Shown here: piece after piece, positions 22,562-45,830 of the stretch
How positions within the stretch are numbered: the first letter of the stretch is position 1
How the letters are laid out: each line of letters begins with the position of its first letter
Assembly (NCBI RefSeq): GCF_900142395.1
Contig: NZ_FRAS01000001.1
Span: 496,001 to 560,000 of the forward strand
DNA length: 64,000 bases
Direction of reading: 5' to 3'
DNA from: Hymenobacter psychrotolerans DSM 18569
GTDB lineage: Bacteria > Bacteroidota > Bacteroidia > Cytophagales > Hymenobacteraceae
The notes under the pieces: generated by a model
Database searches by the model: none
Told to the model about the DNA's origin: nothing
What the model saw: the letters and a program-made list of their open reading frames with translations, nothing else
Made by a program: the position numbers and the translations under genes

Positions 22562-23041
22562 CTAGGAACTCCGCAATACTCGCTCGACGATGCGCGTGGT
22601 GCTGTAGCCGGCTACCAGTGGTACGGTGAGTACCTGCCCGCCGTTCTGTAACACCACCTCGTGGCCCACAATTCCGTCGATGGCGTAGTCGTCGCCTTTC
22701 ACCAGAATATCGGGCACAATGGCCTCAATCAGGGCCAGCGGGGTTTGCTCATCGAAGAGCACTACTGCGTCTACAAACAAAAGGGAGGCCAAAATGCGGG
22801 CACGTGACACTTCGTCCTGCAACGGCCGCCCCGGCTTGAGCCGGCTGACAGAAGCGTCGGTATTGAGGCCGAGCACCAGCTTGTCGCCGAGGTGGCGGGC
22901 CTTTTCCAGGTAGTCGACGTGGCCAAGGTGCAGCAGATCGAAGCAGCCGTTGGTAAACACGATTTGCTGGCCCTCGGCCTTCCAGGATGCCACCAGCGGC
23001 AGCAGGTCGGCCCGGCTCAGGATTTTATCTTTGCTCCACAT
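22562..23041 (-). CDS. rfaE2: D-glycero-beta-D-manno-heptose 1-phosphate adenylyltransferase
   Basis: A 159-residue single-domain nucleotidyltransferase, matching the RfaE2/HldE C-terminal domain. It has VFTNGCFDLLHLGHVDYLEKAR with the HxGH nucleotide site at 38-41, RARILASLLFVDAVVLFDE, and the C-terminal YSTTRIVERVL (ISSTxxI/V-like). It makes ADP-heptose for the lipopolysaccharide core. Start chosen at ATG 23041 (MWSKDKILSR), since the upstream frame runs into the flippase-like gene; the two overlap by 17 bases. Confidence 0.88.
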   Translation of the reverse strand: MWSKDKILSRADLLPLVASWKAEGQQIVFTNGCFDLLHLGHVDYLEKARHLGDKLVLGLNTDASVSRLKPGRPLQDEVSRARILASLLFVDAVVLFDEQTPLALIEAIVPDILVKGDDYAIDGIVGHEVVLQNGGQVLTVPLVAGYSTTRIVERVLRSS

Positions 23042-24095
23042 CGGCGGTGTTTTCAAGAGGCACGGTAGTGAGCAAGGAACCCTTGCGCCCCAGCCGCCCC
23101 GATTTTCCCATACTGACAATAAAGCTGATTCCGCCCATTATCACAATGAGCAGGGTCTGAGCGCCGTGCACTACCAGCGCATAGGCAATGCCCCCCTCCT
23201 TGCTGATGCCGTATACCAGCAGCGTGCTTTGCACCAGCAGGTGAAACACACCAATACCGCCCTGCACCGGTGCCGCCATGCCAAACGCGCCAAACGTGAG
23301 AATGGCCAGCGCTGCCCGTACGCCCAGGTTGTAGGTTTCCGGGAAGGCAAAGAAGGCCAGGTAATCCATCAGGAAGTAAACCAGCCACGTAAAGAAGGTG
23401 TGGAACAGAAATGCGCCTTTGTTTTCCAGCTTCACGATGCTGAACACGCCGGCCAGCAGCCCTTTCACAAAGCCCAGCATCTTATTGAAAACGGCCACCT
23501 GCCGCAGTCGCTCTAGGTTGCGCCACAGGATATAGCCGAACAGCAACACCAGGAGCACAGCTACAATTGCCGCGGCCACCAGCGCATTGCTGTTGCGGGC
23601 CAGCGCATCGGCCTTGCCCTGCAGCAGGTACTTATCGGCAAAGCCCCAGAAGGTCTTAAAATCAAGAAGCAGCACGGTGCCCAGCAGCGCCAGCAGAACC
23701 AATACGTCAATTATCCGCTCGGTGATAACCGTGCCCAGCGACACCTGCAGCGGCACTTGGCTGGTGCGCTGCAGCAATGAGCAGCGCACAACCTCTCCCA
23801 CCCGGCCCGGAAGCACCATATTAGCCAGGTTGCCGGCCATCATGGCGTGGTACACATCCCAGAAAGACGGTTTGGGCCCGCTCACGGTAGGGTCGAGCTG
23901 CATTTTCCAGCGGTGGGCCCGGCTGAAATATCCCAGCACCGAAAACACCATTGTCAGCAGCAGCCACATGTAATTCGCCTCCCGCACGGTTTGCACAATC
24001 CGGCTTAGGTCTTGCCCACGCAGCGCATACCACATCAGCAGCCCGGACACCGACAGCAGCAGGGTATATTTAAGAACAGTAAGGAGTTGCTTCAC
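23025..24095 (-). CDS. Lysylphosphatidylglycerol synthase/flippase-like membrane protein
   Basis: A 356-residue protein with about eight hydrophobic helices, of the UPF0104 (LPG_synthase_TM/AglD-type) family. Typical segments are NYMWLLLTMVFSVLGYFSRA, GNLANMVLPGRVGEVVRCSLL, ERIIDVLVLLALLGTVLLL and QGGIGVFHLLVQSTLL. Relatives move or glycosylate lipids. It overlaps the heptose-phosphate adenylyltransferase gene and probably shares an operon, hinting at an envelope glycolipid role. No aminoacyl-transfer domain is present, so it is not a full MprF. Confidence 0.82.
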   Translation of the reverse strand: MKQLLTVLKYTLLLSVSGLLMWYALRGQDLSRIVQTVREANYMWLLLTMVFSVLGYFSRAHRWKMQLDPTVSGPKPSFWDVYHAMMAGNLANMVLPGRVGEVVRCSLLQRTSQVPLQVSLGTVITERIIDVLVLLALLGTVLLLDFKTFWGFADKYLLQGKADALARNSNALVAAAIVAVLLVLLFGYILWRNLERLRQVAVFNKMLGFVKGLLAGVFSIVKLENKGAFLFHTFFTWLVYFLMDYLAFFAFPETYNLGVRAALAILTFGAFGMAAPVQGGIGVFHLLVQSTLLVYGISKEGGIAYALVVHGAQTLLIVIMGGISFIVSMGKSGRLGRKGSLLTTVPLENTADVEQR

Positions 24096-24153: not shown

Positions 24154-24501
24154 CTAGCCCAGGCGGTTGTGCTGGTCGGGAAATATAACGGTGGGCTTGT
24201 GCGCGCGGGCTTCGGCAAAGTCAATCAGACCATAGGAAATGATGATGACGATGTCGCCAACGGCCACACGGCGGGCCGCCGGCCCATTCAGGCAAATCAT
24301 GCCCGAGCCCCGCTCTCCCCGGATGGTGTAGGTTTCAAACCGCTCCCCATTGTTAATATTCACAATGGTCACTTTCTCATTTTCCACCATGTTGGCCGCG
24401 TCGAGCAGGTCCTCATCAATGGTGATGCTGCCTACATAGTGCAGCTCGGCCTGCGTGACCTTAACGCGGTGAATCTTTGATTTGAGGACCTCGATGTGCA
24501 T
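24154..24501 (-). CDS. panD: Aspartate 1-decarboxylase
   Basis: A 115-residue pyruvoyl enzyme that makes beta-alanine for pantothenate. The self-cleavage site is G24-S25 in [18 protein letters not shown], and the family segments [17 protein letters not shown] and [20 protein letters not shown] are complete. The promoter box TATCTTTG lies on the minus strand at 24530-24537. panC is directly upstream on the same strand, 90 bases away. Confidence 0.96.
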
Positions 24502-24591: not shown

Positions 24592-25464
24592 CTAGGCTGC
24601 TCCTACCGCCTGCTGCTCCGGCAGCAGCACAATGTTGTCGATGAGGCGGACGCCGCCCACCTGCGCAGCCAGGCACACAACCACCGCCTGCCCGGGCACC
24701 CACACATGAATGGGCTGCAGCGTATGCGCATCGGCTATTTCCAAGTATTCAAGCGAGAAGGCTGGCTCCTGCCCGATGTAAGCGGCCGCCGCCGCCTGCG
24801 CAGCCGCAGCAGAAGCCCCGCGCGTGAGTTGCTCGGCGGCAAGCTGCAGGGCAGCATACAGGCGCGGAGCCGCTGCACGGGCCTCGGCCGGCAGCCGGCG
24901 GTTGCGCGAGGACATAGCCAGCCCATCCGCCTCACGAACGGTTGGAAAAGACACAAGCTCCAGGTCAAAACCAAGGTCCATCACCATCTGGCGAACAATG
25001 GCCACCTGCTGCCAATCTTTCTGGCCGAAGTAGGCCTGATGCGGCCGACTCAGGTGAAATAATTTGCTGACCACCGTAGCCACCCCGTTGAAGTGGCCGG
25101 GCCGGTGGGCCCCTTCCATCACGCGCTCCAGCGCCCCGAAATCGAACCGTAGTACTGCGGCGTGCGGATACATTTCCTCTACCGAAGGCAGAAAGAGCAC
25201 GGTGCAGCCCGCCGGCGCCAGTAGGTCGGCATCGGCCTGGGGCAGGCGGGGGTACAGCCGGAAATCATCAGCGTTGTTGAACTGGGTCGGATTGACAAAA
25301 ATACTGACAATCACCACGTCGCAGGCTTGCGCGGCGGCCCGTACCAGTTGCAGATGGCCTTCGTGTAGAGCACCCATAGTGGGCACCAGCCCCAGGCGCA
25401 ATCCCGCGCGACGACAGTTTTCGGTGTAGGCTTGCAACGCGGCGGCCGTGTGCAGTATCTCCAT
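24592..25464 (-). CDS. panC: Pantoate--beta-alanine ligase
   Basis: A 290-residue synthetase that condenses pantoate with the beta-alanine made by PanD, via pantoyl-adenylate. The nucleotide-binding HxGH is in LVPTMGALHEGHLQLV (residues 27-42), followed by VSIFVNPTQFNNADDF, the FGQKDWQQ segment and the KMSKS-like SSRNRRL. I start at ATG 25464 (MEILHTAAALQAY), where the family begins; an upstream ATG at 25521 lies in the divergent promoter region. Next to panD in one direction and divergent from the GT5-like gene. Confidence 0.95.
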   Translation of the reverse strand: MEILHTAAALQAYTENCRRAGLRLGLVPTMGALHEGHLQLVRAAAQACDVVIVSIFVNPTQFNNADDFRLYPRLPQADADLLAPAGCTVLFLPSVEEMYPHAAVLRFDFGALERVMEGAHRPGHFNGVATVVSKLFHLSRPHQAYFGQKDWQQVAIVRQMVMDLGFDLELVSFPTVREADGLAMSSRNRRLPAEARAAAPRLYAALQLAAEQLTRGASAAAAQAAAAAYIGQEPAFSLEYLEIADAHTLQPIHVWVPGQAVVVCLAAQVGGVRLIDNIVLLPEQQAVGAA

Positions 25465-25505: not shown

Positions 25506-25536
25506 TTGAATTTTCGCCCAAATTTGTTTAATTTTG
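25506..25536 (+). promoter_or_regulatory. Promoter of the GT5-like gene
   Basis: TTG (25506-25508), a 20-base spacer and TAATTTTG (25529-25536) match the Bacteroidota consensus, about 48 bases before the start codon. Confidence 0.65.
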
Positions 25537-25583: not shown

Positions 25584-26396
25584 ATGTCCAAGTTGAGAAT
25601 CCTCTACGCGGCTACGGAGATTGATCCGTTTTTGCAGACCACCAAAGTAGCGGAATTTTTACGGCGCCTGCCCCAGGGGATGCAGGAAATGGGAATGGAG
25701 ATTCGCATTTTCGTTCCACGCTTCGGCATCATCAATGAGCGGAAAAACCGGCTCCACGAAGTTGTGCGCCTTTCCGGCATCAACATCGCCGTAGGCGAGG
25801 ATGAGAAGCCATTGATCATCAAGGTGGCATCCATCCCGAATGCCAAGCTACAAGTGTACTTCATTGACAATGAAGACTATTTCCACCGCAAATCGGTGTT
25901 GGTAGACAAGAACGACAAGTTCCACGCCGACAACGATGAGCGGGCCATCTTCTTCTGCAAAGGTGTGCTCGAAACGGTGAAAAAACTAGGCTGGGCGCCC
26001 GACATCGTGCACTGCAACGACTGGATGACCGGCCTGATTCCGATGTACCTGAAAACGACCTACAAGAAGGACCCGATTTTCAAGGACGCCAAGTCGGTTT
26101 TCACGATCTACAACAACGAGTTTGACTACAAATTCGGCGGCGACATCATCGAAAAAGCCAAAATGCTGGATATCGATGACGAAATGCTGGCCGGTTTGAA
26201 GACTGCTGACTTCGGTGGCTTCATCAAAGTAGGCATGGAATACGCCGACTCGGTGGTGAAATCAGACGAGGATTTCAGCGACAACCTGAATGCTCTGTTC
26301 TCGGAATACTCGAAAAACAAGCAGATCGGGCAGGTAGGAGCCGACGAAAACCTACTGACTTCTTACTACGCACTGTATAATGAACTGGCCAATTAG
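25584..26396 (+). CDS. Half-length glycogen/starch-synthase-like (GT5 N-terminal) protein
   Basis: A 270-residue protein that resembles only the N-terminal Rossmann domain of GT5 glycogen synthases: MSKLRILYAATEIDPF, EMGMEIRIFVPRFG, VYFIDNEDYFHRK, DERAIFFCKGVLETVKKLGW and DIVHCNDWMTGLIPMYLK. The C-terminal GT-B half is absent. The ADP-glucose-binding KTGGL motif that normally follows the first strand is replaced by TTKVAEF, so ordinary glycogen synthesis is doubtful. It lies between panC and a DUF4270 lipoprotein gene followed by glmS, and its stop overlaps the DUF4270 start. A conserved Bacteroidota neighbourhood suggests a structural or envelope role. Start chosen at the second Met, MSKLR. 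Confidence 0.8.
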   Translation: MSKLRILYAATEIDPFLQTTKVAEFLRRLPQGMQEMGMEIRIFVPRFGIINERKNRLHEVVRLSGINIAVGEDEKPLIIKVASIPNAKLQVYFIDNEDYFHRKSVLVDKNDKFHADNDERAIFFCKGVLETVKKLGWAPDIVHCNDWMTGLIPMYLKTTYKKDPIFKDAKSVFTIYNNEFDYKFGGDIIEKAKMLDIDDEMLAGLKTADFGGFIKVGMEYADSVVKSDEDFSDNLNALFSEYSKNKQIGQVGADENLLTSYYALYNELAN

Positions 26397-27954
26397 CGCC
26401 TACCGGCTCGCGTCGGTTTCCCTAGTTTCCGCCACGCTGCTTTTCACGGCGGCCGGTTGCGAAGACGCCAGCAACCTTGGCGTAGAACTGCCTGGTACCA
26501 CTGCTGCTAATACCGACTACCGCGACTTCGACGTGACGGCCTCTACCGTATTGCGCGACTCGCTGGATACCCAGAAGTCGTCGCAGATTCTGTTAGGCCG
26601 GGTGCGCGACAATGTGTTGGGCACGACTACCGCTAGTGCTTACCTGAATCTGAAGATTGCGCAGGCCCTGCCCGCACGCGACACAGTTCCGTCGGGTGTG
26701 AGGCAGGTAACCGGTGTAGACGCTAATCCGCAGCTCGATTCGCTGGTGATAGAAGCGCCCTTCGAAACGGTTTATGGCTCGGCTACCGCTCCGCTTCGCG
26801 TAAACATCTACCAGCTGGCTCAACCCCTGGACGAGCGGCAGGTCTATAATTCTTCTTCTTCGGTGGTAACAGGCGCCGAGTTGGGGCTCAATGTGAGTGC
26901 CCGGCTTAATGGCGTGAAAAAGGAGTGGCAGCGCACCAACCCGACCAGCGCCACCGACAAAGACTCGGTGCTGGTAACGACTCCGGATAAAGTGGTGCGC
27001 CTCAAGCTGCACGGCGGCGGCCGGACTCTGCCTTTGGCAAACGACGTATTCGCGCTGCTCAAGGGTACCAACTTCACGCAAGCGTCCCTGAATGCCCTTT
27101 GGAAAGGTATTGCCATTCAGCCTACTTCTGATTTTAATACGGCGGTAGCGAGCATCCTTCCAGGCGGCGGTACGCGGGTGGTTTTTCATTACCACTACAC
27201 CAACAAGAAGAACACTGGCACACTGAAGGGACGATACAGCCTTGCGCTGGGCCTGACCGGCTTCCAAAGTTTTGGCAACGCCCCGCGCTTCTTCACCCAG
27301 ATTACTAACGAGCTGCCTACCGGCTCACCGCTTAGCCGCCTAGCTGGCACTGCCGGTGCTGCGCAGTCGGTACCAGCAGCGGAAACCGATGGCAAAGTGT
27401 ATATGCAGGGCGGCAACGGTTTTGGAGCCAAGCTGGAAATACCGGGCCTGAACGAGCTGCGGACTCTGGCCCAGCCAACTACGGATGGTGGCAGCCCCGC
27501 CATTGCCATCAACCGGGCCGAGTTGCTGATACCGGTAAGCCCTTTCGCCAACCTGCTGTTCCCGCAGGCTACCAGCGCCTACCTCTACGAAGTTAACGCC
27601 AGCAACCAAGCACTGCAGCGCACCGTGCTTAACACCCGAATTGAGCGCATGGTATTGCGTGATGGGGTAAACCCAACCGGCGCTGGCTTGACTTCTATCG
27701 GAGATGACCAATATTCTGGTGGCTACTATCAGAACACAGCTAAGGCTACTCTGAATAACCCGCTCAACACATTCTACAGCACCAGCATTACGTCTTATGT
27801 GCAGGCGTATGTCTATGACAGACTGAATGGCCCTTCTCCGGCAGCATTCGTATTTTCTCCGTTCCTGCGCAACTCGTTCACGCTGGATCTGAACCGGGCT
27901 GTATTGGACGGCACCAATATCAAGCTGCGGGTATACTACTCGAAGTTGCGCTAA
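26380..27954 (+). CDS. DUF4270 family lipoprotein
   Basis: A 524-residue lipoprotein: signal sequence followed by the lipobox SATLLFTAAGC with Cys27, then the DUF4270 region beginning with DASNLGVELPG and a segment containing ILLGRVRDNVLGTTTASAYL. Two repeated halves of beta-rich sequence follow, ending in a conserved LRVYYSKLR tail. The family is known in Bacteroidota without a biochemical role and is usually predicted in the outer membrane. It overlaps the GT5-like gene by 17 bases and precedes glmS. Confidence 0.85.
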   Translation: MNWPISAYRLASVSLVSATLLFTAAGCEDASNLGVELPGTTAANTDYRDFDVTASTVLRDSLDTQKSSQILLGRVRDNVLGTTTASAYLNLKIAQALPARDTVPSGVRQVTGVDANPQLDSLVIEAPFETVYGSATAPLRVNIYQLAQPLDERQVYNSSSSVVTGAELGLNVSARLNGVKKEWQRTNPTSATDKDSVLVTTPDKVVRLKLHGGGRTLPLANDVFALLKGTNFTQASLNALWKGIAIQPTSDFNTAVASILPGGGTRVVFHYHYTNKKNTGTLKGRYSLALGLTGFQSFGNAPRFFTQITNELPTGSPLSRLAGTAGAAQSVPAAETDGKVYMQGGNGFGAKLEIPGLNELRTLAQPTTDGGSPAIAINRAELLIPVSPFANLLFPQATSAYLYEVNASNQALQRTVLNTRIERMVLRDGVNPTGAGLTSIGDDQYSGGYYQNTAKATLNNPLNTFYSTSITSYVQAYVYDRLNGPSPAAFVFSPFLRNSFTLDLNRAVLDGTNIKLRVYYSKLR

Positions 27955-27973
27955 CTTTCGACCTTTATTTTTG
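27946..27973 (+). promoter_or_regulatory. glmS promoter
   Basis: TTG (27946-27948), a 17-base spacer and TATTTTTG (27966-27973), at the very end of the DUF4270 gene. Transcription would start near 27980, where a hairpin begins. Confidence 0.6.
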
Positions 27974-28056: not shown

Positions 28057-29892
28057 ATGTGCGGAATTGTTGCTTATATCGGCCACCAGGAAGCTTGTCC
28101 CATCATTCTTAAGGGACTTCACCGCCTGGAGTACCGCGGTTACGACTCCGCTGGTGTTGCGCTGCTCAACGGAGACCTGAATGTTTACAAAAAGAAAGGC
28201 AAAGTAGCCGAGCTGGAGGCTTTCATTGCGGAAAAAGACACGCGTGCCCACGTTGGCATGGGCCACACCCGCTGGGCCACGCACGGTGAGCCCAACGACT
28301 CCAACGCCCACCCGCACTACTCTACTTCGGAGCGTATTGCCATCATCCACAATGGCATTATCGAAAACTACGCTGCCCTGAAGCAGCACCTGCAGCAGCA
28401 GGGCCACGTTTTCCATTCCGACACGGACACGGAAGTATTCGTGAACCTGATTGAGGAAGTTCAGAAGCAAAACAACTGCTCGTTGGAAGAGGCTGTGCGC
28501 CTGGCCCTGCACGAAGTGGTTGGCGCCTACGCCATTGTGGTGCTGAGCCGCGACGAGCCCAACCAGTTGATTGCAGCCCGCAAAGGCTCGCCGCTGGTAA
28601 TCGGGGTTGGCAAGGACGAGTTTTTCCTGGCCTCGGACGCTACGCCTATCATCGAGTACACGAATGAAGTGGTGTATGTGAATGACTACGAAATCGTGGT
28701 TATCCGCAATGGCCAGCTCGAAATCCGCACCAAGGAAGATGTGCAGCAGACGCCCTATATCCAGAAGCTGGAAATGGAGCTCGACAGCATCGAGAAGGGT
28801 GGCTACGAGCACTTCATGCTGAAGGAAATCTTCGAGCAGCCGCGCTCCATCCTCGACTCGATGCGCGGCCGTCTGGAGCTGGAAGCCGGCCACCTGAACA
28901 TGGGCGGCATCCGGGCCTACGAGCGCAAGTTTGTGAATGCCGACCGGATCATCATTGTGGCTTGTGGCACCTCCTGGCATGCTGGCTTGGTAGCGGAATA
29001 CCTGCTGGAAGATCTGGCCCGCATTCCGGTAGAAGTGGAGTATGCGTCGGAATTCCGCTACCGCAACCCTGTTATTACGGAGCGCGACATTGTAATTGCT
29101 ATTTCGCAAAGCGGTGAAACCGCCGATACGCTGGCCGCCATTGAGCTGGCCAAAAGCAAAGGCGCTACCATCTTCGGTATCTGCAATGTGGTGGGCAGCA
29201 GCATTGCCCGCGCTACGGATGCCGGTGCCTATACCCACGCTGGCCCCGAAATCGGGGTGGCTTCTACCAAGGCTTTCACGGCTCAGGTAACGGTGCTCAC
29301 GCTGCTGGCCATGATTGTAGGCCATAAGCGCGGCTCGCTTTCCGATACCCGCCTGCGCGAGCTGATGGTGGAGCTGAGCAGCATTCCGGCCAAAGTAGAG
29401 AAGGCGCTGCTGCTGAACGACGAAATTGAGTTGATTGCCGAGACGTTCAAGGATGTGCCTAACTTCCTGTATCTGGGCCGCGGCTACAACTTCCCGGTAG
29501 CACTAGAAGGCGCACTCAAGCTCAAGGAAATCAGCTATATCCACGCCGAAGGCTACCCGGCTGCCGAAATGAAGCACGGCCCGATTGCACTCATCGACGA
29601 GAATATGCCTGTGGTAGTTATTGCTACCAAGGACAGCTCGTATGAGAAGGTGGTCAGCAACATTCAGGAGGTAAAGGCCCGCAAAGGCCGCATCATTGCC
29701 GTCGTGACGGAAGGCGACACGGTAATTCCGGCTATGGCGGAATTTGTGATTGAAGTACCGCTGACGTCGGAAGTGCTGGTGCCGCTGGTTTCGGTGGTGC
29801 CGCTGCAGCTACTCTCCTACCACATTGCCGTTCTGCGCGGTTGCAACGTCGATCAGCCCCGTAACCTGGCGAAATCGGTAACGGTGGAATAG
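28057..29892 (+). CDS. glmS: Glutamine--fructose-6-phosphate aminotransferase
   Basis: A 611-residue enzyme that makes glucosamine-6-phosphate for peptidoglycan and lipopolysaccharide. The N-terminal glutaminase begins MCGIVAYIG with the catalytic Cys next to the initiator, and contains GHTRWATHGEPND. Two SIS sugar-isomerase domains follow (IVACGTSWHAG, AISQSGETADTLAA, EGALKLKEISYIHAEGY). The C-terminus LAKSVTVE is canonical. I start at 28057 because the catalytic Cys must follow the first Met; the frame extends 20 codons upstream. There is no sign of a glmS ribozyme. Confidence 0.97.
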   Translation: MCGIVAYIGHQEACPIILKGLHRLEYRGYDSAGVALLNGDLNVYKKKGKVAELEAFIAEKDTRAHVGMGHTRWATHGEPNDSNAHPHYSTSERIAIIHNGIIENYAALKQHLQQQGHVFHSDTDTEVFVNLIEEVQKQNNCSLEEAVRLALHEVVGAYAIVVLSRDEPNQLIAARKGSPLVIGVGKDEFFLASDATPIIEYTNEVVYVNDYEIVVIRNGQLEIRTKEDVQQTPYIQKLEMELDSIEKGGYEHFMLKEIFEQPRSILDSMRGRLELEAGHLNMGGIRAYERKFVNADRIIIVACGTSWHAGLVAEYLLEDLARIPVEVEYASEFRYRNPVITERDIVIAISQSGETADTLAAIELAKSKGATIFGICNVVGSSIARATDAGAYTHAGPEIGVASTKAFTAQVTVLTLLAMIVGHKRGSLSDTRLRELMVELSSIPAKVEKALLLNDEIELIAETFKDVPNFLYLGRGYNFPVALEGALKLKEISYIHAEGYPAAEMKHGPIALIDENMPVVVIATKDSSYEKVVSNIQEVKARKGRIIAVVTEGDTVIPAMAEFVIEVPLTSEVLVPLVSVVPLQLLSYHIAVLRGCNVDQPRNLAKSVTVE

Positions 29893-44488: not shown

Positions 44489-45830
44489 TGCGGCGTTTGA
44501 TAAACCAGCGGTTGTTGATTGACACTCCCAGCTGCGCCCGGATGTAGGTTTCCTTCACGTTGCGCTCCGTCAGACCGGTGCTCAGCTCCCGCACATCGGT
44601 GTTGCCGCGCTGGCCATAGGCAAAGCCCAGGTTGAGGATGGTGGCATCAAGAGCTGTGGCGGATACCGGAAACGAGAAGCCCCAGCTCACCGACCGGTCG
44701 TAGAGCACCTGCCCCCCGGGCCGATACGGCAATTGCGCTACGGCAATACCTGCCCGGTACGTTACGCGCTTAAAGTAGCTATCAACCGAGCCAGGATCCG
44801 GAGCAAATTCCCCGCCGAGAGCGGCGCGCCACGTGTCGTCCAGCGGCACGCCAACCGTACCGCCCTTCTGGTTGAAGGCCCGGAACTTCGACCACTGCTG
44901 CTGCGCAACATCCAGGCTGGCTGACCAGCTGCGGTTGTTGTCGAGGCTCAGGCCGAACTGCGCCAGCGCTGGCACCGTCGCGCTGCCTTCGCCGCTTTCC
45001 AGCACAATGTTTTCGCCAATCTGGCTACCAACGGCCGTCTGGCGGCTCAGCGTCAGGAGCCGCTCTCCGTTCAGCTTGGTCTGGAAGCTGTAGGTACCGG
45101 CTACATTGTAGTTGAGGGTCTTGCTTAGCTTGCTCCGGTAGTGCGCACCGCCCCGAAATTTGAAATCGGAGTAGTGGATATGGTCTATCAGCACCGTCTG
45201 GTCTATGTCCCCACCCGCGGTCAGCACGTCGTCGGGCACCACCTGCGTGGAAGAGTTCATGTCGATGCTGCCGAACACATACGATGCGGCCACGCCCACC
45301 GACAGCCCTTTGGCCAAGCGCACGCCGTGGGCGAAGTAGGCTTCGGAAAGCTCGCCCTCGCCTTTGTAGCGGTTGAGTACCTGCGCCAGGTTGGGGTTGT
45401 TATCGACGCGCATTATTTCCGTCGACTCAAAATCGACGGAGCTGAAGGGCTTGAGGCCCAGGGCAGCTCCCCAACGGCTGGAAATAGGCACCGACAGCGC
45501 CAGATAGCCCAGCTTGCCGCTACCGGTTTTCTGCGAAGTCGTGCTGTTGCTTACCGTCTTGTACTCCCCTATTGCTGTCGCCTCCCAGGTGGTGCGGTTC
45601 GTGTAATAGAGCAGGGCCGGGTTCAGCTCGTTTACCTGTGAGCCGTTAGGCGCCGCCAGGCCAGTGCCCCCCATACCCATCTGCCGGACACCGCCCGCAT
45701 TGAAATAGGTGTCGCCCAGTCCGAGGCGGGAATAAGGAGAGTTGCCGAGGTTTTGGCCCTGGCTGTGCGTGGCAGCACCGAGGCCCAACACCGTCAATCC
45801 CAGCAGCCCGGCGTATTTAGAGTTTAACAT
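44481..45830 (-). CDS. Predicted outer-membrane beta-barrel protein
   Basis: A 449-residue protein starting MLNSKYAGLLGLTVLGLGAA, with a signal peptide ending near THSQGQ. The mature part opens with NSPYSRLGLGDTYFNAGGVR and has alternating-hydrophobicity strands with aromatic ends throughout, as in FadL/OmpP1-type barrels of Bacteroidota. I do not recognise a specific transporter. It sits between coaX (14-base overlap) and lptC (8-base overlap), a tightly coupled arrangement that implies an envelope role. Start moved from the frame start to the Met at 45830. Confidence 0.8.
   Translation of the reverse strand: MLNSKYAGLLGLTVLGLGAATHSQGQNLGNSPYSRLGLGDTYFNAGGVRQMGMGGTGLAAPNGSQVNELNPALLYYTNRTTWEATAIGEYKTVSNSTTSQKTGSGKLGYLALSVPISSRWGAALGLKPFSSVDFESTEIMRVDNNPNLAQVLNRYKGEGELSEAYFAHGVRLAKGLSVGVAASYVFGSIDMNSSTQVVPDDVLTAGGDIDQTVLIDHIHYSDFKFRGGAHYRSKLSKTLNYNVAGTYSFQTKLNGERLLTLSRQTAVGSQIGENIVLESGEGSATVPALAQFGLSLDNNRSWSASLDVAQQQWSKFRAFNQKGGTVGVPLDDTWRAALGGEFAPDPGSVDSYFKRVTYRAGIAVAQLPYRPGGQVLYDRSVSWGFSFPVSATALDATILNLGFAYGQRGNTDVRELSTGLTERNVKETYIRAQLGVSINNRWFIKRRIE

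Follow-up and report, generated by a model that had tools for sequence, protein, structure and literature searches.

What function is served by a GT5 protein that has retained only half of the glycogen synthase after which it is named? The question is raised by a plus-strand gene of Hymenobacter psychrotolerans DSM 18569 (25584..26396 of the window, by which we mean the whole 64,000-nucleotide stretch analyzed), which opens with an ATG at 25584, ends with a TAG stop at 26394-26396 and encodes 270 residues. Its initial residues (MSKLRILY...) recur in close relatives, and among the matches listed the closest named relatives of this short GT5 belong to Hymenobacter; two pattern matches in a viral scan included no real relatives. 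Across the phylum, 294 of 296 sampled genomes gave a GT5 match, which chance could not explain, a count that includes full-length GT5 of any kind. A sequence-only reading had described the protein as the N-terminal GT5 half alone, an observation confirmed here together with the loss of the KTGGL site; its interpretation was partly supported. The N-terminal catalytic-domain fold, Pfam PF08323, is present in both sequence and fold, covering residues 5-228 (E = 1.4e-58), with Pfam otherwise listing just two GT4 N-domain matches, both below threshold. NCBIfam glycogen-synthase models reach residue 243 at most, all far under their cut-offs; the top-scoring full-length model, NF010698 (starch synthase, PRK14098 type), gave 202.5 bits against a cut-off of 754, with only positions 5-236 of its 489 aligned.

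The manner in which the remainder was lost was addressed through an AlphaFold2 model (pLDDT 91.3; 93 over the last block). Residues 4-269 of the model align to residues 1-477 of E. coli GlgA (2qzs) over 246 residues (2.5 Å, Z = 26.8), and the match to Arabidopsis SS4 (6gne_A) attains Z = 30.0. As alignments to solved starch and glycogen synthases run from chain start to chain end with roughly half skipped, the last helix of the short GT5 (residues 257-269; 26352..26390, plus strand), assigned from the model and from tail profiles, would occupy the position of the GT-B crossover helix. When the C-terminal tails of full-length proteins were made into a profile and searched against 149 short forms with a permissive cut-off (E ≤ 10), 55 of the 56 resulting domain matches fell at the C-terminus. 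Profile comparison of short-form with full-length tails gave P = 1.4e-5 and a probability of 80%, whereas none of the controls, comprising six unrelated tails drawn from these loci and ten segments taken along the length of the short GT5, exceeded 0.7%. Sequence and model together strongly support internal excision of the C-terminal Rossmann domain with retention of the terminal crossover helix, as opposed to a protein that simply ends early. The earlier claim that the C-terminal half is missing thus holds for the Rossmann domain, with its equivalents of Arg300, Lys305 and Glu377, but not for the crossover helix, which appears to be retained. With GlgA the short GT5 shares the N-terminal Rossmann domain and the terminal helix.

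Phylogenetic reconstruction of the N-domain with FastTree (130 sequences, 223 columns) placed 79 short forms in a single clade (support 0.997) within a group linked to BamH, a gene considered below; the backbone nodes of this tree are weak (0.18-0.73), and those relied on here range from 0.81 to 0.997. Short GT5 and their full-length relatives separate from canonical GlgA at a node of 118 sequences (0.86), the 12 canonical GlgA rows forming no supported clade of their own. Two further short sequences with KTGS/KTSA remnants, L075 and L095, group with full-length sequences elsewhere (0.81, 0.95), and from this placement apart from the main short clade, shortening apparently occurred at least twice, independently in this second lineage. 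Chlorobi-type sequences lie beside the main short clade with a support of just 0.32, so that their loss of KTGGL may or may not represent a separate event; in these full-length proteins, encoded beside gmhB (L101, L102, L224, L225), the motif has decayed to RVSSL, RVSAL or RISAL. The short-form family descends from complete GT5 enzymes. Relatives possessing a full KTGGL and C-terminal domain, which the sequence-only reading had set against its own proposal, do exist in deep lineages with the same gene order; they demonstrate this descent but restore no activity to the short form.

In the window protein the ADP-glucose motif is replaced at residues 18-22 by QTTKV (25635..25649, plus strand; alignments), and the KTGGL motif is absent from short GT5 generally. 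KxGG was found in none of 148 short forms, neither of the two second-lineage sequences, 29 of 33 full-length members of the same clade, none of four Chlorobi-type sequences and all 12 canonical GlgA. For the roles of active-site residues in E. coli GlgA we relied on the available part of PMC6210743. By alignment, His161 of that enzyme corresponds to Y176 (26109..26111, plus strand) and not to the HCNDW segment, and its equivalent is His in only 18/148 short forms and 0/2 of the second lineage, against 31/33 full-length, 4/4 Chlorobi-type and 12/12 canonical sequences. Loss of the catalytic His of an HDW motif through the Asn of HCNDW was considered and rejected, this Asn being present in 31 of 33 full-length relatives. 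Compared with GlgA, the short GT5 is thus without the C-terminal domain, without KTGGL and mostly without His161, and has instead conserved residues specific to its clade.

The remaining machinery of the genome also bears on whether the protein acts in glycogen synthesis. Its second PF08323 match belongs to a GT3 glycogen synthase of 621 aa (PF05693, E = 1.4e-205), encoded on contig 41 (L002) next to an alpha-amylase-type frame that is probably GlgB, and this locus is probably the real glycogen route of the organism; GlgC gave no match above cut-off in the same genome. Given a separate GT3 synthase and a short GT5 without a donor site, glycogen is most likely made by this other route. From sequence and model, the short GT5 is very unlikely to make glycogen and is very likely a pseudoenzyme, in agreement with the earlier proposal of a role outside glycogen synthesis. 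The annotated function, active synthesis of glycogen or a glucan, has database naming in its favor, and the available part of PMC10797578 cites BT_4307, presumably a member of the short-GT5 family, as a potential glycogen synthase; nevertheless, the protein has neither donor domain nor KTGGL, His161 is mostly lost, and a GT3 synthase is encoded elsewhere in the genome, so that we consider the probability of this reading to be negligible.

Pseudo-glycosyltransferases and split GT-B enzymes, such as the Alg13/Alg14 pair, are known classes, and the short GT5 resembles them in being a GT lobe without catalytic residues. As it constitutes one GT-B lobe, it could be half of a split enzyme whose C-terminal half is separately encoded. 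However, a GT5 C-domain profile found no detached C-domain in its own genome, a search that a strongly diverged lobe would escape, and was equally empty in three others of ten genomes searched, the remaining six yielding only frames of at least 373 aa, the size of a whole enzyme. Furthermore, KTGGL and mostly His161 have also been lost on the retained lobe, and the crossover helix closes that lobe. A split enzyme is therefore very improbable; the short GT5 differs from those classes in that one lobe has been excised, the terminal helix retained, and no separate C-lobe is found in its own genome.

Despite these losses, the gene is under strong constraint. Values of dN/dS (NG86) were 0.008-0.079 in the 11 pairs computed (one further pair was of unequal length), with dS above 1 in seven. 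Identity between the window and six relatives was 94, 84, 83, 82, 72 and 71% for GT5, and 92, 91, 91, 83, 74 and 74% for GlmS in the same six, compared with 46-25% for BamH and 74-50% for PanC. The short GT5 is thus nearly as constrained as GlmS, and far more than BamH.

Within the N-domain, alignment identified a stretch (25704..25853, plus strand) containing six clade-specific invariant residues, R41, R53, H58, R62, K80 and Q90. All six were present in 148/148 short forms, 1/2 of the second short lineage, 22/33 full-length relatives and 4/4 Chlorobi-type sequences, but in 0/12 canonical GlgA. Eighty of the 148 short forms were collected by patterns containing H58, R62 and Q90, so in that subset these three are partly conserved by selection of the sequences; the six residues were likewise intact in all 68 short forms not chosen by pattern. 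Since they follow clade membership, this putative patch goes with the clade and not with catalysis, and the alignments suggest that it probably predates the excision.

These conservation patterns also inform a further possibility, that the protein is a glucan- or sugar-binding sensor acting through what remains of the acceptor side of the active site. Glu9 and Tyr165 contact the acceptor glucose in E. coli GlgA (as given in the available part of PMC6210743), and their equivalents are Glu in 147/148 short forms and aromatic in 109/148, respectively. Yet the Asp137 equivalent is Gly in 83/148 short forms, and the Glu9 equivalent is Glu in all sequences of the other GT5 groups as well, such that it may be structural. 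As the strongest clade-specific constraint falls elsewhere, in the six-residue patch, we regard a sensor of this type as improbable.

The gene immediately downstream provides a different line of evidence. It encodes a 524-aa DUF4270 surface lipoprotein with a lipobox Cys27 (26380..27954, plus strand), a cysteine invariant in 55 DUF4270 sequences, and it is the genome's sole DUF4270 match at a threshold of E = 0.001. Its best NCBIfam match is BamH (NF053686), at 40.3 bits against a cut-off of 420, so that the window BamH is divergent. At 84.9 bits, BamH from a Pedobacter locus (L163) likewise fell under this cut-off; the model, which is named for F. johnsoniae, therefore misses both BamH proteins tested. 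The window protein alone (P0002) matched no BamH in the PDB by phmmer, but a profile of 55 DUF4270 proteins including it matched solved BamH chains of F. johnsoniae, P. gingivalis and B. thetaiotaomicron (9n2d_C, E = 5.3e-44; 9hjm_G, 7.1e-37; 9his_G, 1.3e-18). Moreover, a Foldseek search with its AlphaFold2 model (pLDDT 85.9) ranked exactly these chains in the top three places (E = 4e-20 to 9e-15), at TM scores of 0.49-0.57 and a large rmsd. On the strength of this profile homology and predicted fold, both common to the window protein and to BamH as described in PMC12611786 and PMC12578637, we identify the DUF4270 protein as BamH, which makes it a predicted surface subunit of the Bacteroidota BAM complex. 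The coupling to DUF4270 proposed by the sequence-only reading is real, and extends to glmS in part of the loci; what required correction was the identity of the partner, a subunit of outer-membrane assembly.

The same reading had noted that the GT5 frame overlaps the lipoprotein gene and that glmS follows, as is the case: with a DUF4270 start at 26380 the overlap amounts to 17 nt (26380..26396, plus strand), and glmS begins at 28057. Of the 69 named relatives in which GT5 and BamH are neighbors, among the best 80 of 592 matches, 13 have an in-frame ATG at the same -17 place. Such an overlap could mean that the GT5 is a relict leader frame, kept only for translational coupling to bamH. This is hardly credible given the low dN/dS and invariant residues described above, and given that GT5 is retained where bamH lies elsewhere or is undetected.

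To establish how general the arrangement is, we compared 80 neighborhoods (L033-L112) taken by GT5 match alone and spread over families, though not at random, plus 40 stretches around deep-lineage and canonical GT5 genes, two of which were unusable; the gene-order counts exclude the 12 loci of canonical GlgA. Iterated profiles place BamH after GT5 on the same strand in 61/69 short and 31/33 full-length loci of the same clade, so that the conserved neighborhood suspected earlier is borne out. The iterated profile matches 22 of 24 full-length loci outside the set used to build it, although iteration may have drifted in some full-length loci; a stricter profile, A3, detects BamH in 59/69 short and 12/33 full-length loci. 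BamG follows BamH in 31/69 short and 25/33 full-length loci, and a GmhB-like phosphatase lies directly after GT5 in 19/33 full-length and 2/69 short loci, each of these two profiles having been built from ten loci that were later counted. Seven BamG proteins tested against the NCBIfam BamG model gave E-values of 8e-38 to 3e-77, three being above cut-off, and a profile of ten BamG matched solved BamG chains at 1e-60 to 2e-67. One of three GmhB tested exceeded both GmhB model cut-offs, one fell just below and one clearly below. Seven second genes from deep lineages had no DUF4270 match, matched no BamH in the PDB by sequence and gave nothing notable in Pfam; profile comparison with A3 (probability 99.7, E = 4.6e-26), along with gene order, led us to file them as BamH-like.

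The linkage of GT5 to BamH is old: in deep lineages it is full-length GT5 that lies ahead of a BamH-like gene and, in most cases, of BamG. In the four Chlorobi-type loci GT5 and GmhB are present without BamH or BamG; if our guess at their lineage is right, this agrees with the statement, in the available part of PMC12611786, that Chlorobiota are without both. Among the best 80 of 592 matches, BamH follows GT5 in 69 of the 80 named loci and glmS directly follows it in five (L116, L117, L124, L131 and L146). In these five loci bamH is gone from beside GT5, and DUF4270 is found on another contig in every case.

Small-genome relatives provide a counterweight to this linkage. The Amoebophilaceae live as endosymbionts, and in the family of one Amoebophilaceae genome we found the short GT5 in 17 of 21 genomes (0.7-2.7 Mb). 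BamG was detected in none of the 21, in a search in which the control genome matched, and BamH likewise in none, in a search that had no control genome and whose empty result leans on the BamG search and on a Pfam survey that found DUF4270 in 12 of 14 genomes but not in those of L150 and L183. The L150 genome also gave no GlgC above cut-off and no other PF08323 match. Since GT5 is kept where BamG and BamH are undetected, it cannot be only a BAM accessory, and its envelope link is weakened; this argues that its function does not need BamH or BamG. No neighboring gene is common to all small-genome GT5 loci. At five of them (L249-L253) the frame after GT5, or in L250 and L253 the second frame after it, is helicase-like, measures 865-909 aa and has a start resembling a P-loop (RASAGSGKTH or a near variant).

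Which role, then, is best supported? With the substrate-gripping half lost, yet conservation close to that of an enzyme and BAM genes as neighbors, the short GT5 probably has a different job. Most likely it acts in the cytosol as a pseudo-glycosyltransferase whose conserved role is non-catalytic, and we see about an even chance that this role is one of sensing or scaffolding linked to the envelope. The ancestor was a complete GT5 enzyme of the glycogen/starch-synthase type, whose gene would have headed an outer-envelope cluster (GT5, gmhB, bamH, bamG) early in the phylum. In the window lineage the donor-binding C-terminal Rossmann domain appears to have been excised, with the former C-terminal helix now capping the N-domain, and contacts to ADP-glucose decayed. 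What was retained would be a non-catalytic function, probably older than the excision and dependent on the mostly basic, clade-specific R41, R53, H58, R62, K80 and Q90, whose simplest role would be to bind a phosphorylated or otherwise anionic ligand, or a partner. On this proposal the short GT5 would be a housekeeping protein that senses a ligand or serves as a scaffold in envelope biogenesis, its overlapping reading frame allowing co-production with BamH. The data establish its descent, the missing C-domain and donor site, the constraint and the gene order, whereas cytosolic location, lack of activity, ligand binding and a part in the envelope are inferences.

Several observations count against an envelope role: besides the 21 small genomes, gene neighbors may have nothing in common but a promoter, neither BamG nor GmhB lies beside GT5 in the window lineage, A3 sees BamH in just 12 of 33 full-length loci, and the seven deep second genes matched no BamH in the PDB by sequence. 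The protein may instead be a cytosolic housekeeping protein unrelated to the envelope, with its BAM, gmhB and glmS neighbors a matter of history. We view this as a lesser but appreciable possibility: the gene stands alone in the 17 Amoebophilaceae-family genomes, with BamG and BamH undetected and no neighbor in common, but full-length and short forms alike are linked to BamH, and many to BamG as well, and the heptose, GlcN-6-P and flippase-like genes that recur around GT5 exceed scattered adjacency. Beyond the envelope-linked reading, a more far-reaching version can be offered tentatively, although we consider it unlikely. Here a phylum-wide cytosolic pseudo-glycosyltransferase, historically at the head of a bamH-bamG operon, would sense an anionic sugar or nucleotide metabolite by its basic patch and so pace outer-envelope assembly; its catalytic parts would have been lost in at least two lineages independently (the main short clade and L075/L095) and would have eroded in the Chlorobi-type sequences as well as in a small number of full-length relatives, with most of the patch kept.

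These results imply that the "glycogen synthase" annotation is very probably wrong across a major gut, oral and environmental phylum, and this naming is already entering physiology, judging from the available part of PMC10797578. BamH and BamG set the Bacteroidota BAM complex apart, and GT5 precedes BamH in most of the loci sampled and BamG too in many. Linkage to BAM genes, GlmS-like constraint and survival in small genomes together make the short GT5 a good candidate for an unrecognized core function. We found no functional study of the gene in the literature, most subscription papers and bioRxiv preprints lying outside the scope of our search; a P. gingivalis paper places a glycogen synthase orthogroup under selection, which from the available part of that paper is not identifiable with the short-GT5 family. 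According to the available parts of PMC12611786 and of PMC12578637, a Nat Microbiol 2025 paper, F. johnsoniae cannot live without BamH, whereas in B. thetaiotaomicron, where it is Bt4306, the protein is important without being essential; the adjacent locus numbers of Bt4306 and BT_4307 fit the same GT5-bamH pair. The words glycogen and glycosyltransferase are absent from the main text of both papers. The F. johnsoniae bam gene organization is drawn in a figure that, from the part available, may include the GT5 neighbor. PMC12611786 (Nature 2025) also used the promoter of fjoh_0824, presumably the short GT5 gene that precedes bamH in F. johnsoniae, the passages naming fjoh_0824 containing no discussion of the gene itself.

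The wider neighborhood in the window includes, upstream and on the minus strand, panC (24592..25464; Pfam), divergent from GT5, followed by panD (24154..24501; Pfam), a flippase-like/LPG-synthase transmembrane protein (23025..24095) and an RfaE2-type heptose-1-phosphate adenylyltransferase (22562..23038; TIGR02199, 193.5 bits against a cut-off of 181.5). A bamG encoding the FadL-like BAM subunit lies about 16.5 kb downstream of bamH on the opposite strand (44490..45755, minus strand, the matched part of a 458-aa frame; NF053685, 317.3 bits against a cut-off of 250). In the interval upstream of GT5, a promoter-like site, TTG-N20-TAATTTTG (25506..25536, plus strand), ends 47 nt before the GT5 start and fits what we take to be the Bacteroidota-type consensus. 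The TANNTTTG motif is not enriched in the window, with 20 occurrences against 18.2 expected. The glmS gene itself (28057..29892, plus strand; Pfam, ATG at 28057) encodes a glucosamine-6-phosphate synthase of 611 aa. A TATTTTTG motif is located at 27966-27973, between bamH and glmS, and from this motif glmS may have its own promoter.
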